Of a stretch of 64,000 nt of DNA, positions 33,707 to 56,800 are shown in pieces. The stretch lies in NCBI RefSeq assembly GCF_022539665.2, contig NC_081338.1, positions 992,001 through 1,056,000 of the forward strand, given 5' to 3'. Numbering within the stretch: the first letter of the stretch is position 1; each line of letters begins with the position of its first letter. This DNA comes from Daphnia carinata (taxonomy: Eukaryota; Arthropoda; Branchiopoda; Diplostraca; Daphniidae). The notes under the pieces were generated by a model. It was not told the DNA's origin. It saw only the letters and a list, made by a program, of their open reading frames with translations, and did not search any database. The translations under genes and the position numbers were made by a program.

Positions 33707-33810
33707 ATCGTAGATCATGAAACTGATTCTATAACACTACATTCACATTGAATACACGTATATTTGATGCTGTTTGAATGTAGATATTGAAACTCACTGT
33801 ATCACACTAT
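33707..33810 (-). repeat. 70-bp satellite, block 5 (reverse orientation)
   Basis: About one and a half units between the foldback-like transposon and E5. Ends TATCACACTAT at the first base of the E5 LTR. Confidence 0.92.
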
Positions 33811-34011
33811 TGTAACGAGCCCACAGGCTATCCGAAGACAGCCACACCCTCAACATCCCTCAAGCGTTTCACAAGTGAAAGCGAACGTGTCCCCTCCCAT
33901 TTTACCTTCATTTTGTATGTGTGTTAGTAGTATAAATACTGCATGATTGTAACATGTAATTGGGACTTGTTACGACAATCCACTGCAATACACGAGGTTT
34001 GAAACTTTACA
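33811..34011 (+). repeat. E5 5' LTR with TATA box
   Basis: TGTAACGAGCCC..CTTTACA, 201 bp. TATAAATA is at 33931-33938, which puts transcription start near 33961-33968. From there to the gag splice donor there is no ATG. Similar in layout to the 203-bp E3 LTR. Confidence 0.95.
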
Positions 34012-34013
34012 AT

Positions 34014-34031
34014 TGGAGGTCCCAACGAGAC
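34014..34031 (+). promoter_or_regulatory. E5 primer binding site
   Basis: TGGAGGTCCCAACGAGAC begins two bases after the LTR. From memory it is the complement of a tRNA-Gln 3' end with one or two differences (TGGAGGTCCCACCGAGAT). The same site is present in E6. Confidence 0.8.
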
Positions 34032-34139
34032 TCACACTTGTTGTCCAGTACAAAGTTTCTACCCGTACCTTATTTCAGTGATTGTGCTCTACACTTCCCC
34101 GACGAGTCTCCAACAACTCTACCAGACCAAGGAACACCA

Positions 34140-34152
34140 TCAAAGGTAAGCG
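34140..34152 (+). promoter_or_regulatory. E5 5' splice site before the gag ATG
   Basis: AAAG-GTAAGCGA, with GT at 34146-34147, eight bases upstream of the gag ATG (34154). E6 keeps the same GGTAAGCGAATG at its gag start although surrounding bases differ. Joined to the acceptor at 40716 it would give an env mRNA whose first ATG is that of env. Confidence 0.65.
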
Positions 34153-34153
34153 A

Positions 34154-36886
34154 ATGCCGCTTGATCATATTGTATCAGAGACTACTCGTAAGGAGAATAC
34201 TTTGTATCCGAACATTGCTGACGAACTATCTCCACCGTTGTACCCCGTATTTCCCGAGCCAGACACAACCAACCAAAATCCCAACTACTCTCGAGAAAAA
34301 TTTTTAGACCACTGGAAAACTCTTGTGGACTTAGAATTTGAACAAGAAGTAGAACAAAACAAAACCTATCAGACTACCACGACAAAAGCAAAAATCCAAC
34401 AAATAGAATCCAAAAAACAAGAAGTTATTAAAGAGACCCACAACGCATTACAATTGTATTCATATACGTTGTTAGAACCATCGTTGCAAGTACCAAGTGG
34501 TATAACAGCAGAAACTATTACAAACACCACAAAGACAGTCAAAAATTACGTAGAATCCCTTGGTGGCAACACCGAAAACCTTGACAGTTTATTACAGCAA
34601 ATTAGCATTGTACATGGTAAAGAGAAAGAATTCTTATTAGGTACCAGCCGTATTTTACAAAGAGAAGTAGTACTTGCGCAGATTACAGAGAAAAAATGTT
34701 CGTCTGAACTCAATTTTGAGTTACAGAGCTTAAGAAAGCAGCTAGAGAGCAACAAGAAAAAGGCAAAGAGTTCCAAATACACCTTAAGTAGCTCCCTCGA
34801 ACAACTCCAAGAAAGTAACGAAACTCTAAAAAACTCCCTTGAAAAAACTGCCAATCGAATAAGCGAATTAGAAACAAGCCTTGAAAGTGCCACAGCAACA
34901 GAAAACCAACTACAAAACCTGTTACGAAAAAAAGAAGCCAATATCATAGCAGTTGAGAGAGAAGGGCAAGAAATAATTAGCAAACTTGAAAGTGAAAGAA
35001 AACAACTGGTTACGAAGTTAGAAACCGCCGAGCAACAGATAAAAGCAGCTTTAGAAACAAACAAACAACTTCAGACAGAAACAAAAGAAACAAAAGAGAT
35101 CCTTGAAAAAACCTTAACAGAAAAAGTCGCCTTACGAAGAAGTCTGATAGATATTACTACAAAGAATAAAAATCTTGAAACAGAATTACAAAAAATCAAC
35201 GCGCAGACAATAAACCAAGAAGAAAAGATTAAGTATCTGGAAAACAGGATAAGAGAATATAGAAAGCAACAGGTAACATTCGCTGAAACCGAAGACTTAG
35301 ACAATTCCAACGAACCAGGAGAGATAACGAAATTAGTAAGTGAGATAAACGACCTAACCTCAATAACAGAAGGAGACAAATCCCTTCACTTCGAGTTAGA
35401 ATCTGAACAAGTTGAAAAACTACAGCAATTCAACAACGACCTACAAAACCAAATCGAGATCCAAAACGACAACCTTCTTCAACTAGAGCGAAAGTACCAA
35501 ACTCTCAAAAACAAAATCGAAATGGGACTTTCACACAAAGAAGCTTCAAGAATTGACCGCGACACAACAGATACCGATAGCCTTGATACATCCACAACCC
35601 AACCAATTGTAAAAGCATTAGGAGAATTATTTTCCAGAGAAGACAAAAAGTCAATTCCAATCTTCAAAGGGAAAAGTACTGATAAACTAATAACAGAATG
35701 GCTGAAGGACGCCGAACATGTCGCACGCAACAACGACTGGGACGACAACCAAAAAATACGATTCTTCTCTGACAGACTAAAAGGCGATGCCTTAGAATGG
35801 CATGGAAACTACGTGGAAGAGCAAGGTGACGAATTAAGTTATGACGAATGGAAAACTGCCATTATTGCAAGATTCCAGGATGCATACGACTTAGCAGCAC
35901 AAAGAAAAAAGTTATCCACGCTAAAACAAAAACCTGAAGAGAAATGCAAAGCCTTTATTTCAAGAATCAACAGTCTCTACGAGTCCATTGAAGGCAAAGA
36001 AGAAAAATCTGACCAAAACCAGACCATAGTTGAAGGTCGACTCATAAACACAGTCAAAAGAATGAGAGATTATACCAAAATCAAAATTCTGATGCAAGGC
36101 ATTTTACCAAAATTCAGAGCAGAGCTCTATTTTCGAATGCCCGAAGACCCTGAAGATTTTGATCAGCTTTGTAAACAATTAATCATATCCGAAGGTATCC
36201 TATATAGCAAGGAAACTGCAGAAGATAAGGAAATAAATGCGGTGATAGCAGGGATAACGCACCACGAGAAACAACAAGACAACGAACTTTCACAACAAAA
36301 GACAGAAATTGAATTCTTAAAACAAAAAATTCAGGAACTGGAAAAAACTAATAAAAACCGTAACTTGGCACAGGATACTGATATAACCGTAGCAGCAGCA
36401 GATCGATACGAACCAAGATCCTCACGATCAAGTGATCGGTACTCCAGATCACAAAATCCGCGAGTTCGATTCGACGACAGTTCAAATAGCAGAGGCCCCA
36501 GTAGTGACCGAAATTTCGGCCGAAGCAGGGAGAACAGCCCATACCGCAACAATTATACTTCACCACGAAGACAAGGTACTTCCCCAGGGTATCGACAACC
36601 CAATTACCCTTCATATCAACAAACACCGAGACCTTCATACAACAACGGACCGACCCATTACAATCAACCACACTTTCAACCGAGCAACAATCAACAAGCG
36701 TATCACCAAAACCCAGGTTATCCACGACAATACCCGCAGCAACGACAAAACCAGCCGAACACCCACGACACTCTTGGAAATAAGATTATTATCTGTTACA
36801 AGTGCAATAAAAAAGGACACATTGCACGAGAATGTTGGACAGATATGGCACGTATCAACAACCCGAACCACCGTCCAATGCAGTAA
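34154..36886 (+). CDS. gag: E5 Gag with long coiled coil, capsid domain and CCHC knuckle (910 aa)
   Basis: Forms the particle and binds RNA. The start is the ATG at 34154; the frame is open 72 bp further upstream, but without an ATG. Residues about 60-470 are almost entirely Glu/Lys/Gln/Leu coiled coil (for example KKAKSSKYTLSSSLEQLQES), which normal gypsy gags of 300-450 residues lack. The gag domain is at about 498-690 (IPIFKGKSTDKLITEWLKDA, ARFQDAYDLAAQRKKL, MQGILPKFRAELYFRMPED). Then a second short coil, an Arg/Ser then Gln/Asn/Tyr/Pro-rich disordered tail, and the knuckle CYKCNKKGHIAREC at about 881-894. Overlaps pol by 55 nt in the -1 frame. Intact; E6 gag is the same build. Confidence 0.93.
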   Translation: MPLDHIVSETTRKENTLYPNIADELSPPLYPVFPEPDTTNQNPNYSREKFLDHWKTLVDLEFEQEVEQNKTYQTTTTKAKIQQIESKKQEVIKETHNALQLYSYTLLEPSLQVPSGITAETITNTTKTVKNYVESLGGNTENLDSLLQQISIVHGKEKEFLLGTSRILQREVVLAQITEKKCSSELNFELQSLRKQLESNKKKAKSSKYTLSSSLEQLQESNETLKNSLEKTANRISELETSLESATATENQLQNLLRKKEANIIAVEREGQEIISKLESERKQLVTKLETAEQQIKAALETNKQLQTETKETKEILEKTLTEKVALRRSLIDITTKNKNLETELQKINAQTINQEEKIKYLENRIREYRKQQVTFAETEDLDNSNEPGEITKLVSEINDLTSITEGDKSLHFELESEQVEKLQQFNNDLQNQIEIQNDNLLQLERKYQTLKNKIEMGLSHKEASRIDRDTTDTDSLDTSTTQPIVKALGELFSREDKKSIPIFKGKSTDKLITEWLKDAEHVARNNDWDDNQKIRFFSDRLKGDALEWHGNYVEEQGDELSYDEWKTAIIARFQDAYDLAAQRKKLSTLKQKPEEKCKAFISRINSLYESIEGKEEKSDQNQTIVEGRLINTVKRMRDYTKIKILMQGILPKFRAELYFRMPEDPEDFDQLCKQLIISEGILYSKETAEDKEINAVIAGITHHEKQQDNELSQQKTEIEFLKQKIQELEKTNKNRNLAQDTDITVAAADRYEPRSSRSSDRYSRSQNPRVRFDDSSNSRGPSSDRNFGRSRENSPYRNNYTSPRRQGTSPGYRQPNYPSYQQTPRPSYNNGPTHYNQPHFQPSNNQQAYHQNPGYPRQYPQQRQNQPNTHDTLGNKIIICYKCNKKGHIARECWTDMARINNPNHRPMQ

Positions 36887-39800
36887 ACACAATATCCCTA
36901 CCAACCAACCCTTTAACACAAAATTTAGAAATAGCGATACCCAAACTAATCCGTATACCAGTAAGAATTTTTGGAAAAGAAATTAAGGCTTTAGTAGACA
37001 CAGGAGCAGCAGCCAGTTTAGTTTCTGACAGCATATTTTTTAATCTAAAGGAGTATGAAGAACTTAAACATGTTAAAGACTCCCCTTCGCCAATATTTAG
37101 AACGGTGTCAGGAGAAATACTAAAATCGAAAGGGAAATATGGGTTTTCAATCACCATTAACACCAATCACGTCATTAAGCATGATTTCTTTATTATGGAA
37201 AACTTGAACGAAACTTGCATATTAGGATTAGACTTCTTATCGAGCAACAATGTAAAAATTAATACTAAAAACAGGCAGATCAATTACGATCATTCCGGAA
37301 AAGAACATAGCTTTGGTAAATACACACTCCCAGTATATAGCATAACTTTTGGCAAGACAGGTATTAATATTCCACTCCTCCCAGACCGTTCGTCAGATAG
37401 TAACTACAACAACGATCTGACAGTAGCAGATTATCGCAGCCTAGAATCTTTCTCCCAATCAGAAATTAACAAGAAATCTAAGCGAATTGGACAAACCCAA
37501 GAGAGTGAAACGACTAACATCTCCGACGAGATACGCATTAAAATTGAAAATCTATTGAAGAAACACGAAACTCTATTTGCAGAAAGAGAATCAGATTTGG
37601 GTCTAGCAACTGATGTAAAACATTCCATTAACATAGGATACAACGCCCCAATTACTCAACGATTGCGTAGAACACCAGAAGCATTAAAACTAATTGTCAA
37701 AACAAAGATTGAAGTAATGGTAAATAACAATATTATTAGAGAAAGTCACAGCCCATTTGCAGCAGCAATTGTAATGGTTCCCAAAAAAGATGGAGAAATG
37801 CGTATGTGTATTGATTATAGGGCACTTAACAAAATAACCGTAAAAGACAAATACCCATTACCAAGAATCGACGACACAATTGATGCATTGAGCGGATCAG
37901 TTTACTTCTCAACATTGGACTTACTAAGTGGCTACTGGCAGATCGAGATAGAAGAAAACGACAAACACAAAACCGCCTTCATTTGTGAACTTGGACAATA
38001 CGAATTTAATAGAATGCCATTTGGACTAACAAATGCACCAAGCACTTTTCAACGAGCAATGAACAACATATTGAAATCAGTATTGTTCAGGTTCGCATTG
38101 GTTTACCTGGATGACATCATAGTGTTCAGTAATGATATTGCTGAACATGTGATACATCTAGAAGCAGTGTTTAAACTTCTTAAAGACGCAGGACTAAAAT
38201 TAAAAAGAAAGAAATGCGAATTTTTCAAAGAAGAATTAGACTATTTAGGATATATTGTTTCGAAAAAAGGAATAACACCGAGTACAAAAAAGTTAGAAGC
38301 AATCATCAAATACCCAGCTCCCAAAAACGTGAAAGAATTAAGCTCATTTCTAGGTTTGGCTAGCTATTACAGAAAGTTCATCAGGGCTTTTGCTGATAAA
38401 GCCCACCCACTGACAGCGCTAACGAGAAAATCAGCCGAGTGGAAATGGGGAGAGGAACAAAGGGACGCCTTTGATTGTATCAAGAACTGTCTCATAACTA
38501 GACCTATCCTAGGGTATCCAGATTTCACGCGCGAATTTATCATCTACACAGATGCCTCAGGATACGGTATAGGAGCAGTCTTGGCTCAGATGCAAACTCT
38601 ACCTCAATCAGCGGATTCAGCGGAGTCCGACGTACAGGAACCCCGTGAATCAGACGGCGCGGAAGTCGTCATAGCGTATAGCTCTAAACATCTGAACGAC
38701 CGCGAAGCCAAGTGGTCAACCACAGAGAAAGAGGCTTACGCCATCATCCACGCAATTGACGTATTTAGAACGTATCTATACGGACGCAGATTCACCGTAT
38801 TTACAGACCATAGACCTTTAGAATGGTTAATGAGCAAGACAGAACCCGCAGGAAGATTAGCTAGATGGGCACTAAAAATACAAGAATTCGACATCGTCAT
38901 TGGGTACCGGCCTGGGAAGTCGCACCAAAATGCAGACACCCTAAGCCGTATTCCCATAGTGCCAATAGCACGAGTAGAAACAAGGGCAATGGAAAGAGGA
39001 ACTGTCACAAGAGAGCTAGAAAATATTCGAAAAGAAGGTGAAAATCTAAAAGAAAAACTAAGGATTGAAAGATTAAAGAAACAAGAACAGCTGGAGAAAG
39101 AAAACGAAAGTATTCAAAAAGAAAACGAAAGTTTTGAGAGGGAAAGTCAAAGGAAGAGCGTAGGTTTCGAAAGAGAAATTGGAAGTGAAAGTAAAAGGTC
39201 TGAGAAAGAAGACAGATGGATAGAATTACAGCAAGCAGATAAATATTGTCAAAAACTAATGATGGAAATACAAGAAGATAGCCAGAAAAATAGAAATAAA
39301 AAATTCTCAAGCAACTTTATAATCAATGAAAAGGGTCTATTAACAGATAGACAAGGAAAATTAGTAGTCCCTGTACCGTTAATCGACGGAATTTTACGAG
39401 CAAATCATGATCACATGATGGCAGGGCATTTAGGAATCGAAAAAACAATAGCCAGACTTAGAGAACAATACTTCTTCCCATACATGCGACAAAACGTAAC
39501 AGAACACATCAAAAATTGCCTTAAATGCGCAAAACGCAAGGCTGTGGGAGGAAGTAAAGCACCATTGCAACCTATGCCCCCAGCCGAAAGGGTGTGGGAA
39601 AGACTTGCGATGGATATTGTGGGTCCCGTTCAAGAAAGCGCAAAGGGACATAAGTATATTTTAGTCCTATCAGATTATGCCAGTCGTTTCGTCTTCACGG
39701 TTCCAATGAGAGATCAAACTGCCCAAACAATTGCTACAATACTGGTTAATGATATTTATACAAAATATGGATCCCCCGAAGTAGTACTAACAGATCAAGG

Positions 39801-40692
39801 AACTAATTTCCTGTCGAGCTTAATCCAAGATATTTGCAAATTATTTAAAATCAAACAAATCAGAACAACAGCATACCATCCCCAGACAGACGGATTAGTA
39901 GAACGATTTAACAGAACCCTATGTGACATGTTGGCTTGCTACGTAACGGATGAACCAGAAAATTGGGACAAATATCTACCATTTGTCACATTTGCTTACA
40001 ACACAGCGAAGCAATCAACACTGCAACAAAACCCATTCTTTCTATTCTTCGGGAGACAACCAGTGCTCCCAAACGACATCAAAATAGACAGGCGATACGA
40101 AACATACGAGGATACCAGTGTAATGTACTCACACCAATGGAAGAAGGCTCAGCAACTAGCGAAGGAACACCTATTTCGGGCACAGACAAAACAAAAAAGA
40201 TACTACGACAAAGGAACACAAGCGATCAAATATAACATTGGTGACTTTGTGCTACTGAAAGCTCCACCAACTGCCGGAAAATTCATCAACAGGTGGAATG
40301 GACCATTCAAAATCATCAGAAATTTCTCAAATCTCACTTATGAGATTCAACACGCGAGCAATGAAAAACTAAAATCAGTGGTACACGTCAACCGCCTAAA
40401 GCTCTACGTCCCGGCAAACCAAGAAACAGAAAAATTATCTAGTGTTCCACAACAACCAGGAAGTGAAACAGTGCGACGAGGACCAGGCAGACCAAGAAAC
40501 AACTTCATCAACAACAAAAGAATACCTGTCCGTAGAGCGTGTTGGCATCGGCATCATCATGCAGCAGAAACGGAAAATTGTAAAATCATCGCACCAAATC
40601 TCCCCGGTCCTATACCAATTAATCCTGCACACACTAGAATGACGAATCCACGATACAACTTACGGCAACGCAACGAAGTCTCGAGATTCTAA
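36832..40692 (+). CDS. pol: E5 Pol: protease, RT, RNase H, integrase (1286 aa)
   Basis: Uninterrupted polyprotein in the -1 frame relative to gag, opening with an ATG inside the overlap. Protease ALVDTGAAASLV (Asp about 56) and CILGLDFLSS. RT with MCIDYRALNKITVKDKYPLP and catalytic LVYLDDIIVFS (about 422-432). RNase H FIIYTDASGYGIGAVLAQ (about 570) and TDHRPLEWL. Then an E/K/R coiled-coil linker (about 715-825). Integrase zinc domain (HDHMMAGHLGIEKT, CLKCAKRK), catalytic Asp in AMDIVGP (about 927), Asp in LTDQGTNF (about 986), Glu in LVERFNRT (about 1022), GPF module (WNGPFKIIRNFS, about 1155). All catalytic residues are present. Confidence 0.96.
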   Translation: MLDRYGTYQQPEPPSNAVNTISLPTNPLTQNLEIAIPKLIRIPVRIFGKEIKALVDTGAAASLVSDSIFFNLKEYEELKHVKDSPSPIFRTVSGEILKSKGKYGFSITINTNHVIKHDFFIMENLNETCILGLDFLSSNNVKINTKNRQINYDHSGKEHSFGKYTLPVYSITFGKTGINIPLLPDRSSDSNYNNDLTVADYRSLESFSQSEINKKSKRIGQTQESETTNISDEIRIKIENLLKKHETLFAERESDLGLATDVKHSINIGYNAPITQRLRRTPEALKLIVKTKIEVMVNNNIIRESHSPFAAAIVMVPKKDGEMRMCIDYRALNKITVKDKYPLPRIDDTIDALSGSVYFSTLDLLSGYWQIEIEENDKHKTAFICELGQYEFNRMPFGLTNAPSTFQRAMNNILKSVLFRFALVYLDDIIVFSNDIAEHVIHLEAVFKLLKDAGLKLKRKKCEFFKEELDYLGYIVSKKGITPSTKKLEAIIKYPAPKNVKELSSFLGLASYYRKFIRAFADKAHPLTALTRKSAEWKWGEEQRDAFDCIKNCLITRPILGYPDFTREFIIYTDASGYGIGAVLAQMQTLPQSADSAESDVQEPRESDGAEVVIAYSSKHLNDREAKWSTTEKEAYAIIHAIDVFRTYLYGRRFTVFTDHRPLEWLMSKTEPAGRLARWALKIQEFDIVIGYRPGKSHQNADTLSRIPIVPIARVETRAMERGTVTRELENIRKEGENLKEKLRIERLKKQEQLEKENESIQKENESFERESQRKSVGFEREIGSESKRSEKEDRWIELQQADKYCQKLMMEIQEDSQKNRNKKFSSNFIINEKGLLTDRQGKLVVPVPLIDGILRANHDHMMAGHLGIEKTIARLREQYFFPYMRQNVTEHIKNCLKCAKRKAVGGSKAPLQPMPPAERVWERLAMDIVGPVQESAKGHKYILVLSDYASRFVFTVPMRDQTAQTIATILVNDIYTKYGSPEVVLTDQGTNFLSSLIQDICKLFKIKQIRTTAYHPQTDGLVERFNRTLCDMLACYVTDEPENWDKYLPFVTFAYNTAKQSTLQQNPFFLFFGRQPVLPNDIKIDRRYETYEDTSVMYSHQWKKAQQLAKEHLFRAQTKQKRYYDKGTQAIKYNIGDFVLLKAPPTAGKFINRWNGPFKIIRNFSNLTYEIQHASNEKLKSVVHVNRLKLYVPANQETEKLSSVPQQPGSETVRRGPGRPRNNFINNKRIPVRRACWHRHHHAAETENCKIIAPNLPGPIPINPAHTRMTNPRYNLRQRNEVSRF

Positions 40693-40696
40693 AACG

Positions 40697-40716
40697 TCCA
40701 AATTTTCTTTTCGCAG
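40697..40716 (+). promoter_or_regulatory. E5 env 3' splice site
   Basis: A pyrimidine tract ending TTTTCTTTTCGCAG abuts the env ATG at 40717. E3 (TTTTTCACAG) and E6 (TTTTTATATAACAG) have the same placement, arguing for selection rather than chance. Confidence 0.7.
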
Positions 40717-42368
40717 ATGGAACTGATACTATCACTCATCCAATTACTCACCATCATTCCATCCACATATCCCATCTATTCAACCGTATGCGACTGCCAG
40801 AACGTAAAGACCAGAGGAATTTTAGATATAGAGGCACCCTATTATACTGCAATAACAAAGAATCAGATACAGCTCACTTACCCAGAATACCCACGTTGTA
40901 CACTTTAAAAACAACACAAAAACCAGCAGCCTCTTGGAAAGGCTGGACCTGCAAGCAATGGATAAAAACGAAGAAAATAACTGGGTCATTCTGGATCGGA
41001 TCTTTCGACACCATATATTCACAAGAAACTAAACTAATTTCCCCACTGGAATGCTGGAGAATGGTGAACGACAAGAAATGTGGCGATAATAACATGCAGA
41101 CCGGACCAGCGGGTCTGAGTTTCACAGCCACCCCGACAGGCGAAGGGCAATGGTATGCCATAAAAACATATCACACCCTCAACTGTGTTGCAGAACAAAT
41201 CACCTTACGGCAGGAAAAACAAGACGACCCAATCGAGAGCCCATTTGGACCATTAAATACTACCCAGCAAGAAGGACACTTCATCCAAAATCAAAACACA
41301 ATAGTATGGGGAGATAGGACAACAAATAATTCATATTCTCAAACCTTGATCAAAGGAAGCGGTTATCTGGAACTTCCGAGAATACCGGAACGCGAAAACA
41401 CCAGCCGTCTTTACGACACCAATCGACAGATCGAGATTTCATTCTTCAACAAACCAGATCGGGACATAACACCACAAGGTTACAAAGTTGTGGGCGTACC
41501 GCTCACATACCTAATCTTTCCAACCGAAACAACGAGAAAATTGTACGAGATGTTCAAAACAACTATACATACATGTATACAAAATACTCACATAGATACA
41601 TCGGTGTGCAAGGACTACAGGGAACTCCAGTTAACCAAGCGGAAACGATCCATTCAACAGGAAGTTACATTCTTGCTCAACACCCCCTCGGAAGACTCAG
41701 GAAAACGTCTGTACAGCATTTCGTACGCCTGGGGACCAATAAGAATGGGATATCAACAGGCAATCAGGATCAACGAGAAGGACCGGAGTGTAAATTACAA
41801 CGCCACTATATACATAATATACAAACCCGACGAAAACACTCAGTTAACCGCCCACTTTCGTCTCAAAGACGATGATCCACTTCCTCAAGGATCAGAATTC
41901 GAATACATCGTTGACCAAACAATAAGAATCCAGAACAGTAATATCTGTATCACGGAAGGAGAAGCAGGCCGACTAATTGTTGCTAAATGCTCAGAATTTT
42001 CAACACGGTGGATTCTAGATCAACAAAACCATCAATTAATTTCACAAGAATCGTATCTCTGTATTACACTAGGAACATACCAAGCTATCATATTGACAGA
42101 ATGCAGAGATGATAAGAACAGCGTAACACAAAAATGGATCTTTGAAACTGTCAACACCAATCCAGACATCATAGAAAATTTCCCAGACACAACTTTAGCA
42201 GAAATGCAGGAAATTCAACAAGAACAACGGAAGGCAATCACAACCACGATTAATTCGCCGCTATTTGGAGGAATTTTAAAAACTAATCACGGTAGCGGAA
42301 ATATAATCTGGGATATGATTGCCTGGGGCCTATTGAAAACGGAAAAACACCAAACGAAAAATGTCTAA
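40717..42368 (+). pseudogene. env: E5 env-like glycoprotein, N-terminal part
   Basis: Begins at the ATG directly after the splice acceptor with a hydrophobic signal peptide (MELILSLIQLLTIIPS), then CDCQNVKTRGIL. A one-base phase change at about 40850-40860 moves the reading into the long frame 40788-42368, as comparison with E6 shows. Conserved features are WKGWTCKQWIKTKKITGSFW, many Cys and Trp, and ricin-B-like repeats near the end (CSEFSTRWILDQQNHQL, YLCITLG). A second phase change near 42340 separates it from the next part; E3 reads through that point. Probably a secreted or membrane ectodomain. Broken as assembled, unless the shifts are sequencing errors. Confidence 0.8.
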
Positions 42369-42391
42369 CACACCATGGAGTAAACAAGCAA

Positions 42392-44770
42392 ATGACATTA
42401 GAAGAATGCGACAAAGAGTGGCCGCAATGTCAAGAAGAACTAAGAAAACTAATTAACAGCAACGATCCATTAGTACAATCACAAACAATGGTAGCCAACT
42501 GTAGCAAAGCAACAGAACGAGGACAAGCTTTCGAATATACATCTGATTTCACCATCAGACCGTTCAACACAAACACCTGTATCAAAGCCAATACGACAAT
42601 GCTAGTACTTCAAGAGTGCGCTAGCACCAGCTCAATCTGGGGCACATTTGAGCACACAGGACAGCTCATGGCAACAGATAGAACTGGGCTACATTCACCC
42701 TCATCAGACAGGAAGTGTCTCACACAGAGAGTAGGACGGGTGACCCTGGGGCATTGTCACAGCTCCAGCCAAAAACAGCACTTTAACTTTGAATATCGCA
42801 ACCCACACCAAATACGGACTCTCTCAGCGGCAGCCATCATAGCACTGCACACTAAACAGCCATTGGACGGGAAAACACTCCCAACCATACCACCACTAAT
42901 GAAAAGAGAGGATAACAACCAATCAGAGAACAGCAAAACTTTGGCCACACCCCCTGCCACGCCCACAACAGAAAAACACACAACAACGACAAGCGTTACA
43001 ACGACTACAAAGCCCACAATAAAAACCACACTGGGAACAACAGCAAAAACAACAGTAAAAAGCACTACGACAATTAAACCAGTTACAAGCACAGCAGCTA
43101 GCAAACCCACCACAACACAGAAAGTGACAACTAAACCCAGTATGACATCAACGTCAACAAAACCCACCACAACTACAAAACCAATAATCACATCGACAAG
43201 CACTAAACCCACCACTACTACTAGACCTACGGCAACTGCTAAGATAACTTCAACTTCAACAACCACTACAACTACAAAACTTACGACAACAACAACAATG
43301 GCCACTACGACAAGTTCCACAACAACAGCGACAACAACGACGCACCAGCCAAGCTCAATAACGCCGAGCACAAAAACAGTAATCGAAAGTTCGACTACCC
43401 AACAATCATCAACACATACTGCCGGAGTAACCCCTTTAGCACTAACGGGAACAACGTCTACAACAGAAGGAACTCAAATTCAGGCCATCGAAGAAAGCAG
43501 TATTCGAAACTTGCCGTTAGCTGATTCTTTGATAATTTCAATGGATCAAAAAGCTGAAGATACATCAAACAATGAAAATTTAGAAGCCGATTTACCCAAA
43601 AACATTGAAGAATTCAACGACAAAATTAAATACGAAATAAGTAAAATGCACGACCAATATAAGATAAGCATCGAAACTGAACACGAAAACAAGTTGGCAA
43701 AAGAAATTCGGGACGTTTATTGTCAACTATCAGCAATCAAAAGAACACAAGCAGTTATATTAGCCCAAACCAACGGAATTTTAGCAGCAGCAGCAGTAGG
43801 TTTACCAATCTGCACAAGACTACAAGGCTTCGGTCAAGCAATGACACTTCAACAATGCGAGGCAAAAAGAATTTTTATATCAGCAAACGAAACCAAATGT
43901 GGATTTCAGCCGTTTTTTACTTACGAAGGAAAAAACTGTACGATTGGAACAGATGGATGGTCAATTCATCCATATTCTGATTGTTTCTGGAAAACACCTT
44001 TGGTAAATTTAAATGGAAATCCACACACATGGGAACACAATTCTACGACAGGAGATTGGATACGCCAGAAACCTAGCATTCACATGCCTAATTTAGACCT
44101 CATTTCAGAATTTGAAGAACTCCATCTTAACGATTTCGACTTCGCGCTGAAAAGCCATCCAGCACACGAGACGATGGAAATGGAACAATTAAATATTCTA
44201 AATGACCTAGTTGGCAGAATGCAAGAAGGCAACTCCAATTCTGTTGGAGACATTGTAATGTCAGAACAACAAGATAATCAAATAGGAAACATGTTCTCAT
44301 GGTTCGACAAACTAAAAATAATTGGTCTATCAGCGATAGGATTTGTACTATTCCTCGTATGTTTACGAATCTTCATTATTTGCAACCCCATCTCGAAGAT
44401 AAAAGAACATATCCGCAGAAAACGGAACTTTACAACCAGATACGATGATGGCGTAGAGGAAGAACACGAACTCGCATCAATGATACCGGCACGAGAAACA
44501 AATTACCATTCGGAAATAGCAATCGAACAACCGTTCCTAAGAACAACCGCCCCTGCACAACTAACAACAGAAAGACAAGGTCAAATGCGCCCTCCCCGAC
44601 CAAGTGCACCAAATTCATTAATTTACCCCTCTATCGAAACAACTGACACAATCACACGATGTACAGGAAAACACACCATGTGCACTTACGTCGTCGGATA
44701 TGGCATGGTTTGGGAAGACCTATGCCGTTGCATGTCAGAAACAGACAATAGTAATTCAGCCAGAAAGTAA
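42392..44770 (+). pseudogene. env: E5 env-like glycoprotein, stalk, ectodomain core, membrane anchor and tail
   Basis: Open frame of 792 codons continuing the env protein; the ATG at 42392 is probably internal to the gene. Order: ricin-B-like repeat (WGTFEHTGQL, RKCLTQRVGRVTLGHC); Thr/Lys/Pro-rich mucin-like stalk at about 185-355; a helical stretch with heptads; a Cys/Trp core (CTIGTDGWSIHPYSDCFW, HTWEHNSTTGDW); a polar segment; one membrane helix at about 642-664 (IGLSAIGFVLFLVCLRIFII); a basic stop-transfer (HIRRKRN) and a cytoplasmic tail of about 120 residues. Type I topology. The core is reminiscent of glycoproteins from chuvirus-like negative-strand viruses, but this is from memory and unproven. 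Confidence 0.8.
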
Positions 44771-45507
44771 AAGTCCCAAGGTCATTGAAATTAAAAGTAG
44801 CCACTAAACATAACCCCTGACAAATTTAATTAATTACAAAATAAATTAGCTCCCAGAAAATAACACACTTATCAGCATTTTTTTTTTTTTTTCTCGACCA
44901 CTTAGGTGATTTTTAAAATATATCCCATACTCGTAACTTTATAGTAAAACAAAAGGTAGAGACAAAACCCGAATAACAATTTTGTATTCCAAACTAACAT
45001 GAAATAAAAAAAAAATTCAAAATAGAAAACCTTTGGGATAGACAAAACAAAAATTACAAACCCAAATAACATTTTTTTTTCCTCAACTAAAACAAACAAA
45101 AAAAAAAAAAAAAAAAAAAACAAAAAAAAAAAAAAAAAAAAATCAATAACAAAATCACCGGAGAAAAAGCAGTGTAGTGTAACAAAGAACGACAGAAACT
45201 AACGCACGAAGAAAAAGAGACGCAAGAACCCCTATAAGAAAAGACAATGACTTAAAAAGGAAAATAGAAAGTTCAAAATGTAACGGTATATTCATCAATT
45301 CGCCCCACGGCGAAATAGAAGACGGAACACATTAAAATAGAAGAAACTACCTGTTTTGAAATTAAGAAGAGGGGAACAAGAATTTATGAAAAACTCTGCA
45401 AAAGAAGACTTTTCAAAAAACTAACCTCTTCCCAGTGTTTCAACGACATAATTCAGACAAAGTTCTACAAAGAAAAGTGTCATCACAAGTCAACCTTTAC
45501 TCTAAAA
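44771..45507. other. E5 spacer between env and ankyrin ORF, A-rich
   Basis: No gene seen. Long A and T runs (44878-44893, 45097-45141). A candidate 3' splice site CTCTTCCCAG ends at 45435; from there to the ankyrin ATG no other ATG occurs, so a second spliced mRNA for the ankyrin ORF is possible. Confidence 0.55.
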
Positions 45508-46725
45508 ATGGAAAACAACAACATCACTCAGGATAACGCAATGGACGTAACCATCATCCCACAAGAAGAAAAAGAATACGAATTAATATACATTAGTGAT
45601 ACTGAAAGTGAGAATAGCCAGCAGGAGTACAAAGAAAAGGAAAGTGCTAAAAATGCAGATGTGAACAAGCAGATAGTGAAAAATGTAGAATGGAACGGAA
45701 TCAAAACCGAGAAAAACGATTTTTCCGAACTAGAGAGAAAAAGGAAAGACATCAGTGAATCAAGTGACGACGACACCGAGGAGGTAAATGCCTATAGTGA
45801 AATGGAACCCGATCTGGATAGTACCTACAGTACTGAATTTATATTGGAAAATAACAGTGACAACGGTTTCCAATATGACCCACCCCACGGTACCGAATTG
45901 GAAAATGTTAGTGACACCGACCTCCAATGTGAACCGCCCAAAAAACGGAGCAGACCGAATAACCAACAAAGGGAAACAGAAACATGCAAGAACTGTCGGA
46001 TGAAGACAATAGCACCCCTTTCAACAGAACAAGCAGAGAAGATTCAACTGCACCGACAGGCTACTATTGACTTGGAAGACGGAAAACTTTGTCTATCAAT
46101 GATGGAAGCTACACTACCAACTATAAGAAGATGCATCCAAAAAAGATTAGAATCGCTAGGATGTTGGCCACGACAAAAAATGGCCATATTCCTTAATAAA
46201 AGATACGAGGAAGGACGTACCCTGCTCCACACCAGTATACAAAAAGTAAGGTACGACATAACTGATGCTCTACTTGCCTATGGGGCAAACCCCGAGATAA
46301 TGTATCGAGGCAGCACAATTGGACACATGGCAGCGGAAAATAACGACTTATTCCTGGTAAGGATACTAAAACACCACAACTGCGAGTTCACAAATCGCAA
46401 TAAAGACGGAGAAACCCCGCTAATGACAGCAATATCACACGAACATGAGGAATGCGCACGCCTAATTTCGACACCAACAAACATCAAAATAGCAACCAGC
46501 AAGGGCAGAACCATCTTGCATTACCTCGCCAGATATGGACTCGAAGACTTGGCTACGCAAATCTGTACAAAAAGAATAATTGACGTCAACCAACAAGACG
46601 AAACGGGCACAACTGCCTTACACGAAGCAGTGAAATATAAACGACTGGACATGATCGAATTACTGCTTCTACATGGAGCAGATAAAAAGATAAAAGACAA
46701 CCGTGGACATACTGTAGTCAAATAA
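45508..46725 (+). CDS. E5 ankyrin-repeat protein (405 aa)
   Basis: Intact ORF with a good start context (AAAATGG). Residues 1-150 are acidic, Ser/Glu/Asp-rich and disordered, followed by a basic PPKKRSRPNNQQR stretch that could be a nuclear localisation signal and a CKNC pair. Residues about 235-400 are five ankyrin repeats: GRTLLHTSIQKVRYDITDAL, GSTIGHMAAENNDLFLVRIL, GETPLMTAISHEHEECARLI, GRTILHYLARYGLEDLATQI and GTTALHEAVKYKRLDMIELL. Such a gene is not part of the standard gypsy set. It lies between env and the polypurine tract, inside the LTRs, and its relative is in E3, so it belongs to the family. Likely role: binding host proteins. Function unknown. Confidence 0.85.
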   Translation: MENNNITQDNAMDVTIIPQEEKEYELIYISDTESENSQQEYKEKESAKNADVNKQIVKNVEWNGIKTEKNDFSELERKRKDISESSDDDTEEVNAYSEMEPDLDSTYSTEFILENNSDNGFQYDPPHGTELENVSDTDLQCEPPKKRSRPNNQQRETETCKNCRMKTIAPLSTEQAEKIQLHRQATIDLEDGKLCLSMMEATLPTIRRCIQKRLESLGCWPRQKMAIFLNKRYEEGRTLLHTSIQKVRYDITDALLAYGANPEIMYRGSTIGHMAAENNDLFLVRILKHHNCEFTNRNKDGETPLMTAISHEHEECARLISTPTNIKIATSKGRTILHYLARYGLEDLATQICTKRIIDVNQQDETGTTALHEAVKYKRLDMIELLLLHGADKKIKDNRGHTVVK

Positions 46726-46945
46726 TAACAGCACAAACATACAATAATCAAGACAAAGGTGGAACGAGTTATTCAACCATAGTCATCATTAGTATTCATA
46801 GAAGCAGCTGTAGTTGGTGACGGAAAAAGAAGAAGGAGAACAATTTCTGCTAAAAATTCAGGTGAAGGAACAAGTTTTTTATATTATCCGTAAAACAATA
46901 GTCGGTGATGGAAACACACACATTGGAGGACCAATTCTTCTCATC

Positions 46946-46960
46946 GAAGAGGGGAAGGAA
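46946..46960 (+). promoter_or_regulatory. E5 polypurine tract
   Basis: GAAGAGGGGAAGGAA directly before the 3' LTR, identical to that of E3. The region 46726-46945 between the ankyrin stop and this tract is non-coding. Confidence 0.88.
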
Positions 46961-47151
46961 TGTAACGAGCCCACAGGCTATCCGAAGACAGCCACACCCT
47001 CAACATCCCTCAAGCGTTTCACAAGTGAAAGTGAACGTGTCCCCTCCCATTTTACCTTCATTTTGTATGTGTGTTAGTAGTATAAATACTGCATGATTGT
47101 AACATGTAATTGGGACTTGTTACGACAATCCACTGCAATACACGAGGTTTG
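46961..47151 (+). repeat. E5 3' LTR, last 10 bp missing
   Basis: Identical to the 5' LTR except for one base (GAAAGTGAAC against GAAAGCGAAC), but after GAGGTTTG it passes straight into satellite (TAGATCATGAAAC). The terminal AAACTTTACA is lost. Confidence 0.95.
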
Positions 47152-48388
47152 TAGATCATGAAACGATTCTATAACACTATATTCACATTGAATACACGTA
47201 TATTTGATGCTTTTTGAATGTAGATATTGAAACTCACTGTATCACACTATATTCACATTGAATACACGTATATTTGATACTGTTTGAATGTAGATTATGA
47301 AACTGATTCTATAACACTATATTCACATTGAATACACGTATATTTGATACTGTTTGAATGTAGATCATGAAACTGATTCTATAACACTATATTCACATTG
47401 AATACACGTATATTTGATGCTGTTTGAATGTAGATATTGAAACTGACTGTATAACACTATATTCACATTGAATACACGTATATTTGATGCTGTTTGAATG
47501 TAGATATTGAAACTCACTGTATCACACTATATTCACATTGAATACACGTATATTTGATGCTGTTTGAATGTAGATAATGAAACTCACTGTATAACAACTA
47601 TATTCACATTGAATACACGTATATTTGATACTGTTTGAATGTAGATATTGAAACTCACTGTATCACACTATATTCACATTGAATACACGTATATTTGATA
47701 CTGTTTGAATGTAGATCATGAAACTGATTCTATAACACTATATTCACATTGAATACACGTATATTTGATGCTGTTTGAATGTAGATATGAAACTGATTCT
47801 ATAACACTATATTCACATTGAATACACGTATATTTGATACTGTTTGAATGTAGATCATGAAACTGATTCTATAACACTATATTCACATTGAATACACGTA
47901 TATTTGATGCTGTTTGAATGTAGATATTGAAACTCACTGTATCACACTATATTCACATTGAATACACGTATATTTGATGCTGTTTGAATGTAGATATTGA
48001 AACTCATTGTATAACACTATATTCACATTGAATACAAGTATATTTGATGCTGTTTGAATGTAGATATTGAAACTCACTTTATCACACTATATTCACATTG
48101 AATACACGTATATTTGATACTGTTTGAATGTAGATCATGAAACTGATTCTATAACACTATATTCACATTGAATACACGTATATTTGATGCTGTTTGAATG
48201 TAGATATTGAAACTGATTCTATAACACTATATTCACATTGAATACACGTATATTTGATACTGTTTGAATGTAGATCATGAAACTGATTCTATAACACTAT
48301 ATTCACATTGAATACACGTATATTTGATGCTGTTTGAATGTAGATATTGGAACTCACTGTATCACACTATATTCACATTGAATACAAG
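47152..48388 (-). repeat. 70-bp satellite array, block 6 (reverse orientation)
   Basis: About 17-18 units in the same orientation as blocks 4 and 5. Units are visibly more alike than in block 2, and include A/B hybrids (ATATTGAAACTGATTCTATA). Ends within a unit at GAATACAAG. Confidence 0.95.
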
Positions 48389-48657
48389 TTCTGATTGGCT
48401 GTTGTAGTCAGGTGACGAAGTCACGTGACCAATGTCACGTGACCCAAAGTTTTTGTTTTTATCGGCAGCCATTTTGTTTTTTCTGAAATAGGTAATTTTG
48501 TTTAACAAAACAATCACCTAAGTGTAGCACTTTAAAATTTAGTTACTCGTATTTCGTGAGGTAAGTTAATGTATTAACCCTATATTACACTATTTAAAAG
48601 ATTTCTAATAATAATTTGTTCTAAATCCTTTGCTTGTTATCCAAGGAAACTGGCAAT
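48389..48657 (+). promoter_or_regulatory. Upstream region of the KDZ-like gene
   Basis: Contains a cluster of CACGTGAC motifs (GAAGTCACGTGACC, ATGTCACGTGACCC at about 48418-48445), i.e. E-box/CRE-like palindromes in a short span, then GGCAGCCATTTTG. Probably promoter or transposon end. No gene. Confidence 0.4.
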
Positions 48658-51515: not shown

Positions 51516-51615
51516 NNNNNNNNNNNNNNNNNNNNNNNNNNNNNNNNNNNNNNNNNNNNNNNNNNNNNNNNNNNNNNNNNNNNNNNNNNNNNNNNNNNNN
51601 NNNNNNNNNNNNNNN
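51516..51615. other. Assembly gap of 100 N
   Basis: Exactly 100 N, a conventional placeholder length. It interrupts E6 env. The DNA left of the gap shows no E6 sequence. Confidence 0.99.
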
Positions 51616-51971: not shown

Positions 51972-52745
51972 TTATACTTCTGGGTTTGAATTTAGTGTTT
52001 CAAATACCCATTGCTGGTTGTCGTCCATATCGTCAGGTCTGCTGCATTTTTGCAGGATTAAAGAGCGTTTGGTTCCTTCGTCCTCGTCTCGTAGTGTGAT
52101 GCATAGGTGTTTTTCCAATGATATTAGCTGGTGGTTTTTTGTATCGAATAGCCAGCGCGACGTCCGTTCACCGCATTGTCCCGTAATGATCGTGTTTATC
52201 TCCGATGTCGTTAGACACGTGGTGGTTCTTCTGATTCGTAAGGTGTGGTCCATTAGGTACTCGAAGTCTGTTCCATAAGGTAATTTTTCGTCTATGTCGA
52301 ATTGGTTATGGATGGTCACTTGTTTTTGGGTGTACATTATCTTGATGTAAACGATTGAATCTTGTTTGCGTATTACGCCGTTTTCTTCTATCTTTGTTAT
52401 TTTTGGATGGCCTAAACGAATCCATCCCCAAGCATAAGAAATGCTGTAGAGTCGTTTTCCCAATTCAGCTTCTTCGAGTGGATCGTTTAAAAGGAATTCG
52501 ACTTCTTGCTTTATGGATCTTTTCGTTTTGCTATTCCTCGGTTCTGCAAACTCATTGCATGACCATGAGTCGATATTGGTTTGATTTTTACAGGAGGGTA
52601 GGGTGTTTTTATGTATTTTGTATAACTTTCTTGTTGTTTCGGCGGGGAATATCAAAAAGGTTAGGGGGATGCCGACTACTTTAAAGCTGGGTTGAGCTAG
52701 TTCTTTATTATTATTATCAGGGGTCAGACTTGCCGCGCCGATCAA
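51972..52745 (-). pseudogene. env: E6 env-like glycoprotein, middle part
   Basis: Homologous to the later half of E5 40717-42368: FKVVGIPLTFLIFPAETTRK, KRLYSISYAWGWIRLG, FEYLMDHTLRIRRTTTCLT and ricin-B-like GERTSRWLFDTKNHQL. Its first few residues come from the inserted repeat. It stops at about 51972 short of the region that is continuous in E5. Confidence 0.82.
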
Positions 52746-53013
52746 TTTTCCGATCTCGATCTCCGATCCGATCTTTTGAGTTTGATCGGATCGCCGATCA
52801 AGATCGGCCGATCATTTTTACCGATCTTTTCTACGACATCTGCGCTCAAAATTTATATTTATCGAATTTAGTTGGCTGTCACAGCGACAGTCACTGACGG
52901 CCATTGATGAACTAAACAGAATTGTTCGCAAAAATAGTAGTGGTATTTAAAATCGACTTTGGCGAAAAGTGATGGTTTGGGTCAATCTTCTTTATCATTT
53001 TTTTGATCGAAGA
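52725..53013 (+). mobile_element. 289-bp insertion in E6 env with 16-bp target duplication
   Basis: TATTATTATCAGGGGT occurs at 52709-52724 and 53014-53029, and env is continuous if the intervening DNA is removed. The insert begins CAGACTTGCCGCGCCG, carries several GATCGG/CCGATC motifs and ends with an imperfect palindrome (ATCTTCTTTATC..TTGATCGAAGAT). The long duplication suggests target-primed insertion (SINE- or LINE-like), though I see no clear A tail or pol III boxes. Confidence 0.75.
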
Positions 53014-53764
53014 TATTATTATCAGGGGTGTTAAAGAATGATATTTCAATTTGTCTACTGGTATCTAAGAGTCTACTGGTATTTACGATTTCTGTGGTTT
53101 GGGTCAATTCTAGATATCCAATACCTTTAAGGATTATTTGGGAATTGGAAACATTACTAGATTTATCTCTCCATACTATTGTATTATTATTTTGAATGAT
53201 TTGGCCGTCTTGTTGGGTAGCATTTAAATATCCAAAAGGGCTTTCAATTGGGCTTTCAGGGGTTTCCTGTCTTAATGTTATCTCTTCTGCAAGGCAATTT
53301 AGGACGCGATATTCTTTAATGGCATACCACGCACCCTCTCCCGTTGGGGTTGCTGTGAAACTTAATGAGGTTGGGGTGGCCTGCATAATATTGCCTCCGC
53401 ATCTCTTATCGTTAACCATTTCCCAACATTCTAACGGTGAAATCAGTTTTGTTTCTTGGGAGAAAACCGTGTCGAATGATCCAACCCAAAAGGATCCTGT
53501 AATTTTTTTTGTTTTTATCCATTGTTTACAAGTCCATCCTTTCCATGTTTTAATGGGTTTTTGTTTTGTCATTAGGGTATAACTAGTGGGGAAACGTGGG
53601 AAATGTAGCCTGGTTCCGACATTTTCTTTATCGCAATAATAGGGTGAATTTATATCCAGTATGCCTCTTGTTTTCACATTCTTACAATCGCATACGGACA
53701 CGTAAATTGTTTGGGAAGTTTCAAGGGTAGCTAACACGCAAATTACTAGTAGGATTATCTCCAT
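52982..53764 (-). pseudogene. env: E6 env-like glycoprotein, N-terminal part
   Basis: Starts at the ATG 53764-53762 right after a CAG acceptor, with signal peptide MEIILLVICVLATLETS and CDCKNVKTRGIL. Homologous to E5 env through WTCKQWIKTKKITGSFWVG, LSFTATPTGEGAWYAIKEY and RQIEISFFNTPDNN, where the 289-bp insertion interrupts it. This copy shows the uninterrupted N-terminus that E5 has lost by a phase change. Confidence 0.85.
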
Positions 53765-53785
53765 CTGTTATATAAAAAAAATAGT
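53765..53785 (-). promoter_or_regulatory. E6 env 3' splice site
   Basis: Minus strand TATTTTTTTTATATAACAG immediately before the env ATG, preceded by a long A run from the plus-strand T tract at 53804-53822. Confidence 0.65.
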
Positions 53786-53830
53786 AATTTTATTACTACA
53801 GGTTTTTTTTTTTTTTTTTTTTAGTTTTGC

Positions 53831-56800
53831 TTAATAAGTTCTTTTCCTAAGATTATAGCGGGCATTTCCCGAATTGGTTGGGGTGTTTAGTTCGGCATAG
53901 GACATTCTTTGGTTTTTGATCAGGGGTACAGGATTCGTGGAGTTTTTTTCTGTTTTCAAATTTAATGGGCCAATCTCTGTTGTTACATTTTTACGTGGTC
54001 TTCCAGGGCCTCTTTTGATTTTACTTTCGATTTTCACGTTTGGATTTAGTATTTCTGTGGTGTTTGGTACACTTTCTCGAGGGATATAGAGTTTCAGGCG
54101 ATTAGAGTGAACTGTTGCTTTTTGTTTTTTGTTTTCAATGTTTTCGACCTCGTAAGTTATGTCTGAGAAGTTTCGTGTGATTCGGAACGGTCCGTTCCAT
54201 CTGTTAATGAATTTACCTGCTGATGGTGGAGCTTTTAGCATTACTAAGTCACCAATTTTATACGCAATTCCTTTTGCTCTTTCATCGTAGTATCCTTTCT
54301 GTTTAGTTTGTGCTTTGAAGAGGTGACTTCTTGCCAGGTCTTGAGCGTTTCTCCATTTTTGGTAGTATAATCCACTACTGCCTTCGTCGTGCTCGAAGTT
54401 CCGATTTATTTTTATGTCGTTAGGTAGAATTGGTTCTCTTCCGAAGAAAAGGTAAAATGGGGTGTCCTTTAGCGTAGCTTGTTGTGATGTGTTGTACGCC
54501 AAGGTGACAAATGGTAGGTATTTGTCCCACTCTTCTGGTTCATCTACTACGTAGCAAGCTAGCATATCACACAGAGTTCTGTTGAATCTTTCTACTAGTC
54601 CGTCGGTTTGCGGATGGTAGGCGGTAGTTCTTATTTGCTTGATTTTAAAAAGTTTACACATTTCTTGAACAAGGCTCGAAAGGAAATTCGTTCCTTGGTC
54701 GGTTAGCACAATCTCGGGTGCTCCATATTTCGTTATCACTTTATTTACCATAATGGATGCGATTGTTTGGGCGGTCTGGTTTTTCATTGGAAATGCAAAA
54801 ACGAAACGACTGGCATAATCAGACAGAACTAGAACATATTTATATCCCTTAACACTTTCTTGAATTGGTCCTACTATATCCATTGCAATGCGTTGCCATA
54901 CTCTGTCAACTGGTGGCAGAGGTTGCAATGGTGCTATCGTTGCGCCGAAGGCTTTACGCCTTGCACATCTTAAGCAACTGTTAACGTATGTCGTAACATC
55001 TGTTCTCATGCTTGGCCAAAAATATTGTCTTTGTAGTCTCGCTAAAGTCTTCGCAATTCCTAAATGTCCTGCTAACATGTGATCATGATTTTCTTCCATT
55101 ATTTCTCTTATTGTATTTCCTGGCACCACTAGTCTTCCATATTTGTCTACTAATTCACCTTTTTCGTTTATCTTATATCCATTTATATTCTCTTCCTTTC
55201 TGGTTCCCTGTTTCTTTTTTTTCATTAAATTACCTATAATTCTTCTGCAATTTATATCGTTATGCTGTAGTCGAACCCATTCGCTTTCTTCCTCTTTAAT
55301 TTCGCTTTTAATCGCTCTTGCGTCTACACTAGCTATAGTTGCTACTGGGGTACGACTAAGGGTATCCGCATTTTGGTGCGATTTACCTGGTCGATATCCA
55401 ATTACGATGTCATATTCTTGGATTTTGAGTGCCCATCTAGCTAGTCGTCCTGCTGGTTCCGCTTTACTCATTAACCATTCTAACGGTCGGTGGTCGGTGT
55501 ATACTGTAAATTTACGTCCGTATAGGTAGGTTCGAAATACGTTGATTGCATGAACGATCGCATAAGCTTCCTTCTCTGTGGTGGACCACTTGGCTTCGCG
55601 GTCATTCAGATGTTTGGAGCTGTATGCAATGACGACTTCTGTGTCGTCTGATTCACTGAGAACTGGTTCGTTAGTCTCACCTGAATCCGCTGATTGAGGT
55701 AGAGATTGTATTTGTGCCAAGACTGCTCCTATTCCATACCCTGACGCATCCGTATAGATGATAAAGTCGCGCGAAAAATCCGGATAACTCAGGATAGGTC
55801 TAGTGATGAGACAGTTCTTTATACAATTAAAGGCGTCCCCTTCTGACTCTCCCCATTTCCATTCTGCTGACTTTTTCGTAAGTGCAGTCAATGGATGAGC
55901 TTTATCAGCAAAAGCTCTGATAAATTTCCTGTAGTAACTAGCCAAACCTAAGAATGAACTCAATTCTTTTGTATTTTTGGGAGCGGGGTAATCTATAATT
56001 GCTTTTAATTTTTTCAAATTTGGTGTTATCCCTTTTCTAGAAACGATGTATCCGAGATAGTCCAATTCTTCTTTAAAAAATTCACACTTCTTTCTTTTTA
56101 GCTTAAGTCCCGCAATTTCCAGAAGCTCGAAAACTTTATCTAGGTGCGATAGATGTTCCTTAATCGATTTACTAAATATAATTATATCGTCTAAGTATAC
56201 TAGGGCGAATTTGTACAGCACGTCTTTCAGAATGTTATTCATTGCTCTTTGGAACGTACTTGGTGCGTTTGTTAACCCAAATGGCATTCTGTTAAATTCG
56301 TACTGTCCAAATTCGCAAATGAAAGCTGTTTTATATTTATCCTTTTCTTCAATCTCGATTTGCCAGTATCCGCTCAAAAGATCCAATGATGAAAAATACA
56401 TAGACCCGCACAATGCATCCACAGTATCGTCAATTCTTGGTAAAGGGTATTTATCTTTAATTGTTATTTTATTTAGCGGCCTATAGTCGATGCACATACG
56501 CATCTCTCCATCCTTTTTGGGTACCATTACGATGGCTGCGGCAAACGGGCTGTGGCTCTCCCTTATTATCTTATTTTTTAGCATTACTTCAATTTTAGAT
56601 TTTACGGTTTCTTTCAGTGCTTCGGGTGTTCTACGGAGTCGTTGATTAATCGGGATGTCATGTCCGGTATTTATAAAATGTTTTACTCGTGATACGAGAC
56701 CAAGGTCTGATTCCTTGTCCGCAAATAATTGCTCATGTTTGTTAAGTAAGTTTTTTACTTTTGTTAAGACTTCAGTTTCAAATTCTGGGATATTGAATTG

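Follow-up and report, generated by a model that had tools for sequence, protein, structure and literature searches.

In most descriptions, long terminal repeat (LTR) retrotransposons of arthropods carry gag, pol and no further gene except env, and the errantiviruses, such as gypsy of Drosophila, have the gene order gag-pol-env with a spliced env and, to our knowledge, no ankyrin gene. An earlier note on the DNA studied here, made from the sequence alone, had likewise held that standard gypsy gene sets lack an ankyrin gene, which agrees with the usual picture but has to be qualified, as ankyrin repeats have been reported in the Burro elements of planarians. Burro (GYPSM1) are giant Gypsy-like LTR elements with env homology, in which ankyrin repeats occur along with other host-like domains (PMC6431247). 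Extra open reading frames (ORFs) are a known kind of addition to LTR elements (PMC5408684; PMC7264820), and the elements of bdelloid rotifers have a captured non-env ORF3 and share modules (PMC5408684). The subject of this analysis is a stretch of 64,000 nucleotides from Daphnia carinata (contig NC_081338.1, positions 992,001 to 1,056,000; hereafter the window), in which an LTR element that we call E5 extends over window positions 33811-47151 on the plus strand and consists of an LTR, a leader, gag, pol, an env-like gene, an ankyrin ORF, a polypurine tract and a 3' LTR.

E5 resembles Burro in having ankyrin repeats in an env-bearing Gypsy-like LTR element. In Burro, however, the repeats are one motif within a 4,873-residue ORF1 polyprotein that also contains BIR, BCL2-like and MATH motifs (PMC6431247), whereas the Daphnia element, compared by description, has a separate 3' gene of 405-511 residues after env. 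The bdelloid ORF3 also differs, in that it encodes a GDSL esterase or a DEDDy exonuclease, with no mention of ankyrin in the accessible text (PMC5408684). The word ankyrin occurs 0 times in the available text of a survey of D. pulex LTR elements (PMC2996953), and in searches of open-licence PMC articles, the titles and beginnings of abstracts listed mention no LTR element in which ankyrin repeats form an accessory gene of their own. We favor the interpretation, with a probability of roughly 0.55, that an env-bearing Ty3/Gypsy-type family in Daphnia has retained this ORF as an accessory gene and that its ankyrin solenoid serves as a host-directed adaptor.

The ankyrin ORF (45508-46725, plus strand) has 405 codons, is placed between the end of the env-like gene at 44770 and the polypurine tract, as the earlier note had claimed, and matches Pfam Ank_2 at 2.3e-25. 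From the ORF list, Pfam and a structural model, the protein is composed of an acidic, disordered N-terminus, a CxNCxxKT motif and an ankyrin solenoid. The predicted structure has ankyrin-type helices over about residues 191-405, with block mean pLDDT (predicted local distance difference test) values of 76-96, and values under 50 for residues 1-162; the N-terminal ~160 acidic residues are predicted to be disordered. The N-terminus (159 residues) has a net charge of -24 and a content of aspartate and glutamate of 26%, and KKRSR is a possible nuclear localization signal (NLS), in agreement with the acidic N-terminus and possible NLS proposed earlier. Inspection by eye revealed no signal peptide or membrane segment in the E5 protein, the ORF of which stops 8 codons earlier than those of its nearest relatives.

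Searches of the 108-Mb D. carinata assembly yielded at least 112 matches to the ankyrin protein, some of which are pieces of one gene; this is a lower bound, as 103 of 394 candidates were scored. The matches include 28 that lack a stop and span 95% or more of the query. Of 50 ankyrin loci fetched, which are spread over many contigs, 45 have the LTR of the element downstream. We grouped the reverse transcriptase (RT) sequences by their identity to E5 into A (89-100%, 64 rows), B (84-88%, 15 rows) and C (53-57%, 17 rows), with 7 in between; the bins rest on identity alone, and decayed A copies may have landed in B. A same-strand ankyrin match was located 3.5-9.5 kb downstream of RT in 30 of 64 rows in A, 9 of 15 in B and none of 17 in C, as compared to 0 of 103 on the wrong strand and 4 of 103 upstream. 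Groups A and B together have 49 full-length RT rows; ankyrin is present in 28 of these, env in 29 and both in 24. The ankyrin gene of clade B (L100:1541-3073, 511 residues) is 31% identical to that of E5 and shares its plan, with an acidic N-terminus, a CxNC motif, ankyrin repeats and a mildly basic tail. The position of the gene is fixed downstream of pol and env in two D. carinata pol groups, and in gene models from D. magna it comes after env. Taken together, these patterns support the suggestion of the earlier note that an ankyrin gene belongs to a whole family of such elements.

The evidence from D. magna came from a search with the E5 env protein, which listed 68 proteins. Ankyrin Pfam domains were identified in nine of these, all of them D. 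magna gene models that lead from env into complete or partial stretches of homologous ankyrin repeats; six have the (C/R)xNCxxKT motif region and the other three lack that stretch. The other 59 env relatives have no ankyrin domain, which says little, as annotation frequently truncates the genes of such elements. A tree of 29 sequences places the 19 ankyrins from elements of both species in one clade, separated by a branch with support of 98/97 from 10 outside ankyrin proteins. The D. carinata clade B gene groups with two D. magna sequences (100/98), and the ankyrin gene therefore either had split into lineages before the two species or was passed from one to the other. When the ankyrin protein itself was the query, profile searches gave no named carrier beyond D. 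carinata among the matches listed, with a method that misses distant relatives and long fused models; it is known to miss carriers because the D. magna cases escaped it. Outside Daphnia, generic ankyrin proteins were recovered with ~20-50% identity over part of the query (best 120 of 127 and best 120 of 294), and no donor gene could be named among them.

The earlier note had proposed a comparison of dN/dS (the ratio of nonsynonymous to synonymous substitution rates) between copies, and this revealed purifying selection, with ratios of 0.09-0.29 between lineages at dS of at least 0.4 (66 pairs, of which four were saturated and gave no ratio). Regional medians were 0.27 for the acidic region and 0.13-0.14 for the linker and the ankyrin domain. 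When 164 random changes, the number that separates L001 from L016, were introduced into the E5 frame in a neutral simulation, 0 of 500 frames remained open, and with stops masked the simulated dN/dS was at least 0.53, as compared to the observed 0.15. The closest pairs have ratios of 0.17-0.19 inside the E5 type and 0.46-0.62 elsewhere, and four groups of close pairs yielded pooled values of 0.28-0.52. Higher ratios are to be expected in close pairs because selection has had little time to act. The value of 2.52 for L020 and L022 stems from 10 versus 1 changes, and that of 2.51 for the pooled trio L019, L020 and L022 from 20 versus 2 changes, which are too few for use.

The low ratios between lineages indicate that the gene is selected and therefore no recent passenger. 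Ankyrin repeats are common host domains, which speaks for the alternative of a recently captured host gene, or of one joined to the element by an assembly error. We reject this alternative as highly improbable in view of the many copies on many contigs, the LTRs downstream of 45 of 50 loci, the presence of the gene in D. magna, and its age and selection as judged from dN/dS, the tree and the simulation. The scenario in which only E5 and a second element of the window, E3, carry the gene by one recent capture, raised by the earlier note, fails in view of the 112 matches, the second lineage in clade B, the D. magna models and the purifying selection; misassembly, also considered there, is very unlikely in view of the downstream LTRs.

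The 3' accessory proteins of retroviruses are made from spliced subgenomic mRNA, and candidate splice sites for such an mRNA are present in E5. The candidate major donor, CAAAG/GTAAGC (34140-34150, plus strand; the slash marks the exon end at 34145), is identical in 14 aligned leaders, and the exact 16-mer was found in 14 of 20 fetched 5' regions. It is located 8 nt upstream of the gag AUG at 34154, the one that unspliced RNA would meet. The candidate acceptor, CCTCTTCCCAG/T (45425-45436, plus strand, exon start 45436), is a conserved block in diverged DNA: the non-coding DNA before the ankyrin gene aligns poorly between lineages, except around CTCTTCCCAG/TGT. The acceptor pattern occurs in 42 of 50 copies, a count for which L019 at least was scanned over the wrong stretch, with 21 further occurrences across these loci, which total 181,093 nt. 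The distance from acceptor to AUG is 72 nt in E5, L016, L020 and L025, and 75, 67 and 102 nt in L031, L036 and L038, respectively; the clade B gene has a different candidate acceptor, TAACTTCAG, likewise 72 nt before its AUG. There is no AUG between the acceptor and the ankyrin start in E5 and L100, nor in positions 33960-34145 of E5. Donor and acceptor together predict a singly spliced ankyrin mRNA.

A 3' gene with predicted spliced expression is also what would be expected of a protein that regulates its own element at the transcriptional or post-transcriptional level, in a Tas-, Tax- or Rev-like role, with the acidic region as activation domain, a basic tail for nucleic acid binding or import, and the ankyrin repeats as a scaffold. 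The N-terminal charge, -7 to -38 in all 16 ankyrin sequences compared (some of them partial), would fit such a role, as would the C-terminal tails with charges of +6 to +28 in five of the 16. A basic tail of the KKSKNKRRKERR type was identified in L031, L036, L037, L038 and L045; the tail charges are +13 to +28 in three clade A relatives with a longer C-terminus and +6 in the clade B sequences. The basic tail is, however, absent from the E5-type lineage, which has many intact copies, the charges are 0 and +2 in the two models from D. magna in which a tail could be measured, and no known DNA- or RNA-binding domain was found in the Pfam scans. We therefore regard a regulatory role as a tentative possibility, and the strongest competitor of a host-directed adaptor.

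Comparisons between individual copies point to cassette exchange. E5 and the copy at C7:6478570 (C7c) have a dS of 0.03 in RT and 0.004 in env, and of 0.53 in the ankyrin gene; the identity in windows is mostly 97-100% in the flanks (94-95% in part of the spacer) and 81-91% within 45.67-46.87 kb. Over ~45.74 to 46.79 kb, the same copy is 97-100% identical to L020, the flanks of which are 67-93% identical, and L012 switches again near 46.5 kb. Exchange has also affected env, as seen from a dS of 0.04 in RT and 0.60 in env between E5 and C5d. On these alignments, the ankyrin alleles are swapped between elements. Template switching between co-packaged RNAs is a retroviral behavior, and it would explain the exchange.

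These data also bear on the possibility that the protein is a component of the particle or its assembly, or a chaperone of env, and not directed at the host. Such a role would account for the purifying selection and for the observation that, when a full-length RT row of A or B has ankyrin (28 rows), env is mostly present between the two (24 rows). It is nevertheless unlikely, since the ankyrin gene is swapped while env stays constant, as between E5 and C7c, and since the N-terminus is acidic and disordered and the protein has no signal peptide or membrane segment discernible by eye. A more specific form of host targeting would be a nuclear anti-silencing factor, the ankyrin domain of which would bind a chromatin or SUMO-pathway component of the PIWI-interacting RNA machinery, with allele swapping tracking host variants. 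We consider this proposal speculative and improbable.

The binding partner cannot be named from the fold because generic ankyrin matches tie within one Z unit; these include Bcl-3, gankyrin, FEM1, EHMT1, ankyrin-2 and DARPins, while the best E-values in Foldseek belong to the RNase L ankyrin domain. An inhibitor of host Rel/NF-kB signaling, similar to IkB or the vankyrins of polydnaviruses, would share with the E5 protein an ankyrin domain, as identified by Pfam and in the model. As to closeness to IkB relative to other ankyrin proteins, we observed structural ties and rank 50 in the Foldseek list; gankyrin, FEM1, EHMT1 and DARPins match equally, and IkB was not among the best 60 of 416 or the best 60 of 489 sequence matches. 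Furthermore, the DSGxxS phosphodegron of cellular IkB was absent from all 16 sequences, some of which are partial. Many ankyrin proteins of DNA viruses match the fold too, several from pox and giant viruses being within the 50 best viral fold matches, and the likeness to vankyrins and poxvirus ankyrin proteins is that of viral ankyrin proteins in general; the Daphnia protein has no demonstrated IkB-specific affinity, F-box and PRANC were not found, and the carrier is different. No Pfam match to F-box, PRANC or SOCS box was obtained at E<=1 for E5 or E<=0.5 in the scan of relatives, and one relative scored 17.0 bits against the ankyrin ubiquitin-binding model, under the cut-off of 26.1. An IkB-like inhibitor is accordingly doubtful, and neither the NF-kB/IkB role nor the ubiquitin role contemplated in the earlier note was borne out, while its more general suggestion of host targeting or anti-defence is still reasonable but unproven.

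We propose an adaptor aimed at a host factor because the gene has been retained under selection at the 3' end, its splicing is predicted, and its product combines a solenoid of a protein-binding kind with flanks that are charged and disordered. The protein would be translated from the singly spliced subgenomic mRNA, its solenoid would bind a host protein, and the flanks, NLS-like in E5, may direct the complex into the nucleus or attract another binding partner. The benefit would most likely be relief from host control of the expression or replication of the element, and recombination between elements would shuffle the ankyrin alleles. Several observations weigh against this interpretation. No ankyrin match was obtained for the 17 rows of the distant pol group C by either query, although a diverged gene is conceivable there, and an ankyrin match within range is also lacking for five of the 29 full-length A and B rows that have env. 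The E5 type has no basic tail, and the tails measured in D. magna models are close to neutral. A hydrophobic-acidic motif reminiscent of SUMO-interaction motifs (LIYISDTESE in E5) is present in seven of eight clade A proteins but, by one and the same pattern, in none of eight clade B and D. magna sequences. There is no sign of positive selection on the ankyrin gene overall, and its dN/dS exceeds the values for env and RT by a modest margin, which leaves an arms race unsupported. Long branches, including the two D. magna rows that group with clade B, are flagged by the tree program. Finally, the splice sites are predictions from sequence, as are expression and binding.

By its gene content and order, E5 is an env-bearing Ty3/Gypsy-type (Metaviridae) element of D. 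carinata, with two LTRs with TGT/ACA ends, although its own 3' LTR end is truncated, and with gag followed by a pol in the order protease, RT, RNase H and integrase according to Pfam. The 5' LTR (33811-34011) starts with TGT and ends with ACA, and its full length of ~201 nt, terminating in ...ACTTTACA at 34011, was deduced from other copies. The 3' LTR (46961-47151) lacks the final 10 nt, as judged from the repeat comparison and other copies, and is identical to the first 191 nt of the 5' LTR at 190 of 191 positions, which confirms that the LTRs are almost identical, as previously noted. A target duplication of 4 bp was found in eight of 12 other copies with both ends printed, and none was found at the ends of E5; the missing 10 nt and the missing duplication are most simply explained by a small deletion in the surrounding 70-bp satellite. 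Membership in Troyka was considered and dropped, since the LTR ends of that group are CG...CG and its duplications 3 bp (PMC12440569).

All internal parts of E5 are on the plus strand. Directly after the LTR is a presumed primer-binding site (34014-34031), nearly invariant in 14 aligned leaders, with one change in one leader. A search with a 17-mer from this site gave 10 places, none demonstrated as a tRNA gene; one of them, C7:691038, is at the 5' end of an element copy. The gag gene (34154-36886), with a Ty3 capsid-like region and a CCHC knuckle in Pfam, was given its start, the AUG 8 nt past the donor, from the leader comparison. It is followed in the -1 frame, as determined from the ORF coordinates, by pol (36832-40692, identified by Pfam), with which it overlaps by 55 nt (36832-36886). 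The polypurine tract (46946-46960) is seen in the sequence just 5' of the 3' LTR.

In contrast to the open frames of gag, pol and the ankyrin gene, the env-like gene (40788-44770) is broken in E5 into two ORFs in different frames (40788-42368 and 42392-44770); ten other env rows have open frames of 1,363-1,386 codons. The env-like protein has ricin-type lectin matches in Pfam and, near the C-terminus, a weak match to the baculovirus F protein (Baculo_F, E=0.0025, 16.9 bits, under the cut-off of 24.1). Set against the env of errantiviruses, the weak Baculo_F match would be a point of similarity, and the Daphnia protein is distinguished by a length that reaches ~1,370 codons with ricin-type lectin matches. 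Its relatives (P0166-P0233) come from three Daphnia species (D. magna, D. sinensis and D. pulex) and from metagenome records, of which some have a collagen-like insert (P0214), and no relative was found in the viral contigs searched.

Two other elements are located near E5 in the window. In E3, the earlier note had reported a homologue of the ankyrin gene, and ankyrin sequence is indeed present, but as the C-terminal half only, joined by a deletion to the lectin part of env (12698-13681, minus strand, from sequence comparison). This remnant is 59% identical to the E5 ankyrin over 138 residues, and the LTRs of E3 are identical at 196 of 205 positions. The other is a clade B element (51972-60174, minus strand) with open gag and pol and a truncated or partial env, in which no ankyrin match was found and for which the repeat search found no LTR pair; a run of 100 Ns is located at 51516-51615. 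A 70-bp tandem satellite flanks E3 and E5 (10051-12327, 23435-24499, 33710-33810 and 47150-48430). Its role as a target site is unsupported, as only 13 of 45 readable 3' flanks of ankyrin-bearing copies match the satellite.

An intact and selected ankyrin gene in two Daphnia species suggests that the element uses an ankyrin protein to handle its host. With a long-kept accessory gene, predicted splicing and allele exchange, the Daphnia elements resemble the complex retroviruses, and the finding is relevant to the question whether counter-defence genes exist in the endogenous retroelements of arthropods. Should the anti-silencing proposal be true, we know of no earlier counter-defence gene of this kind in the LTR retroelements of arthropods. 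Since D. magna is used as a laboratory animal, a direct search for the host partner is feasible.
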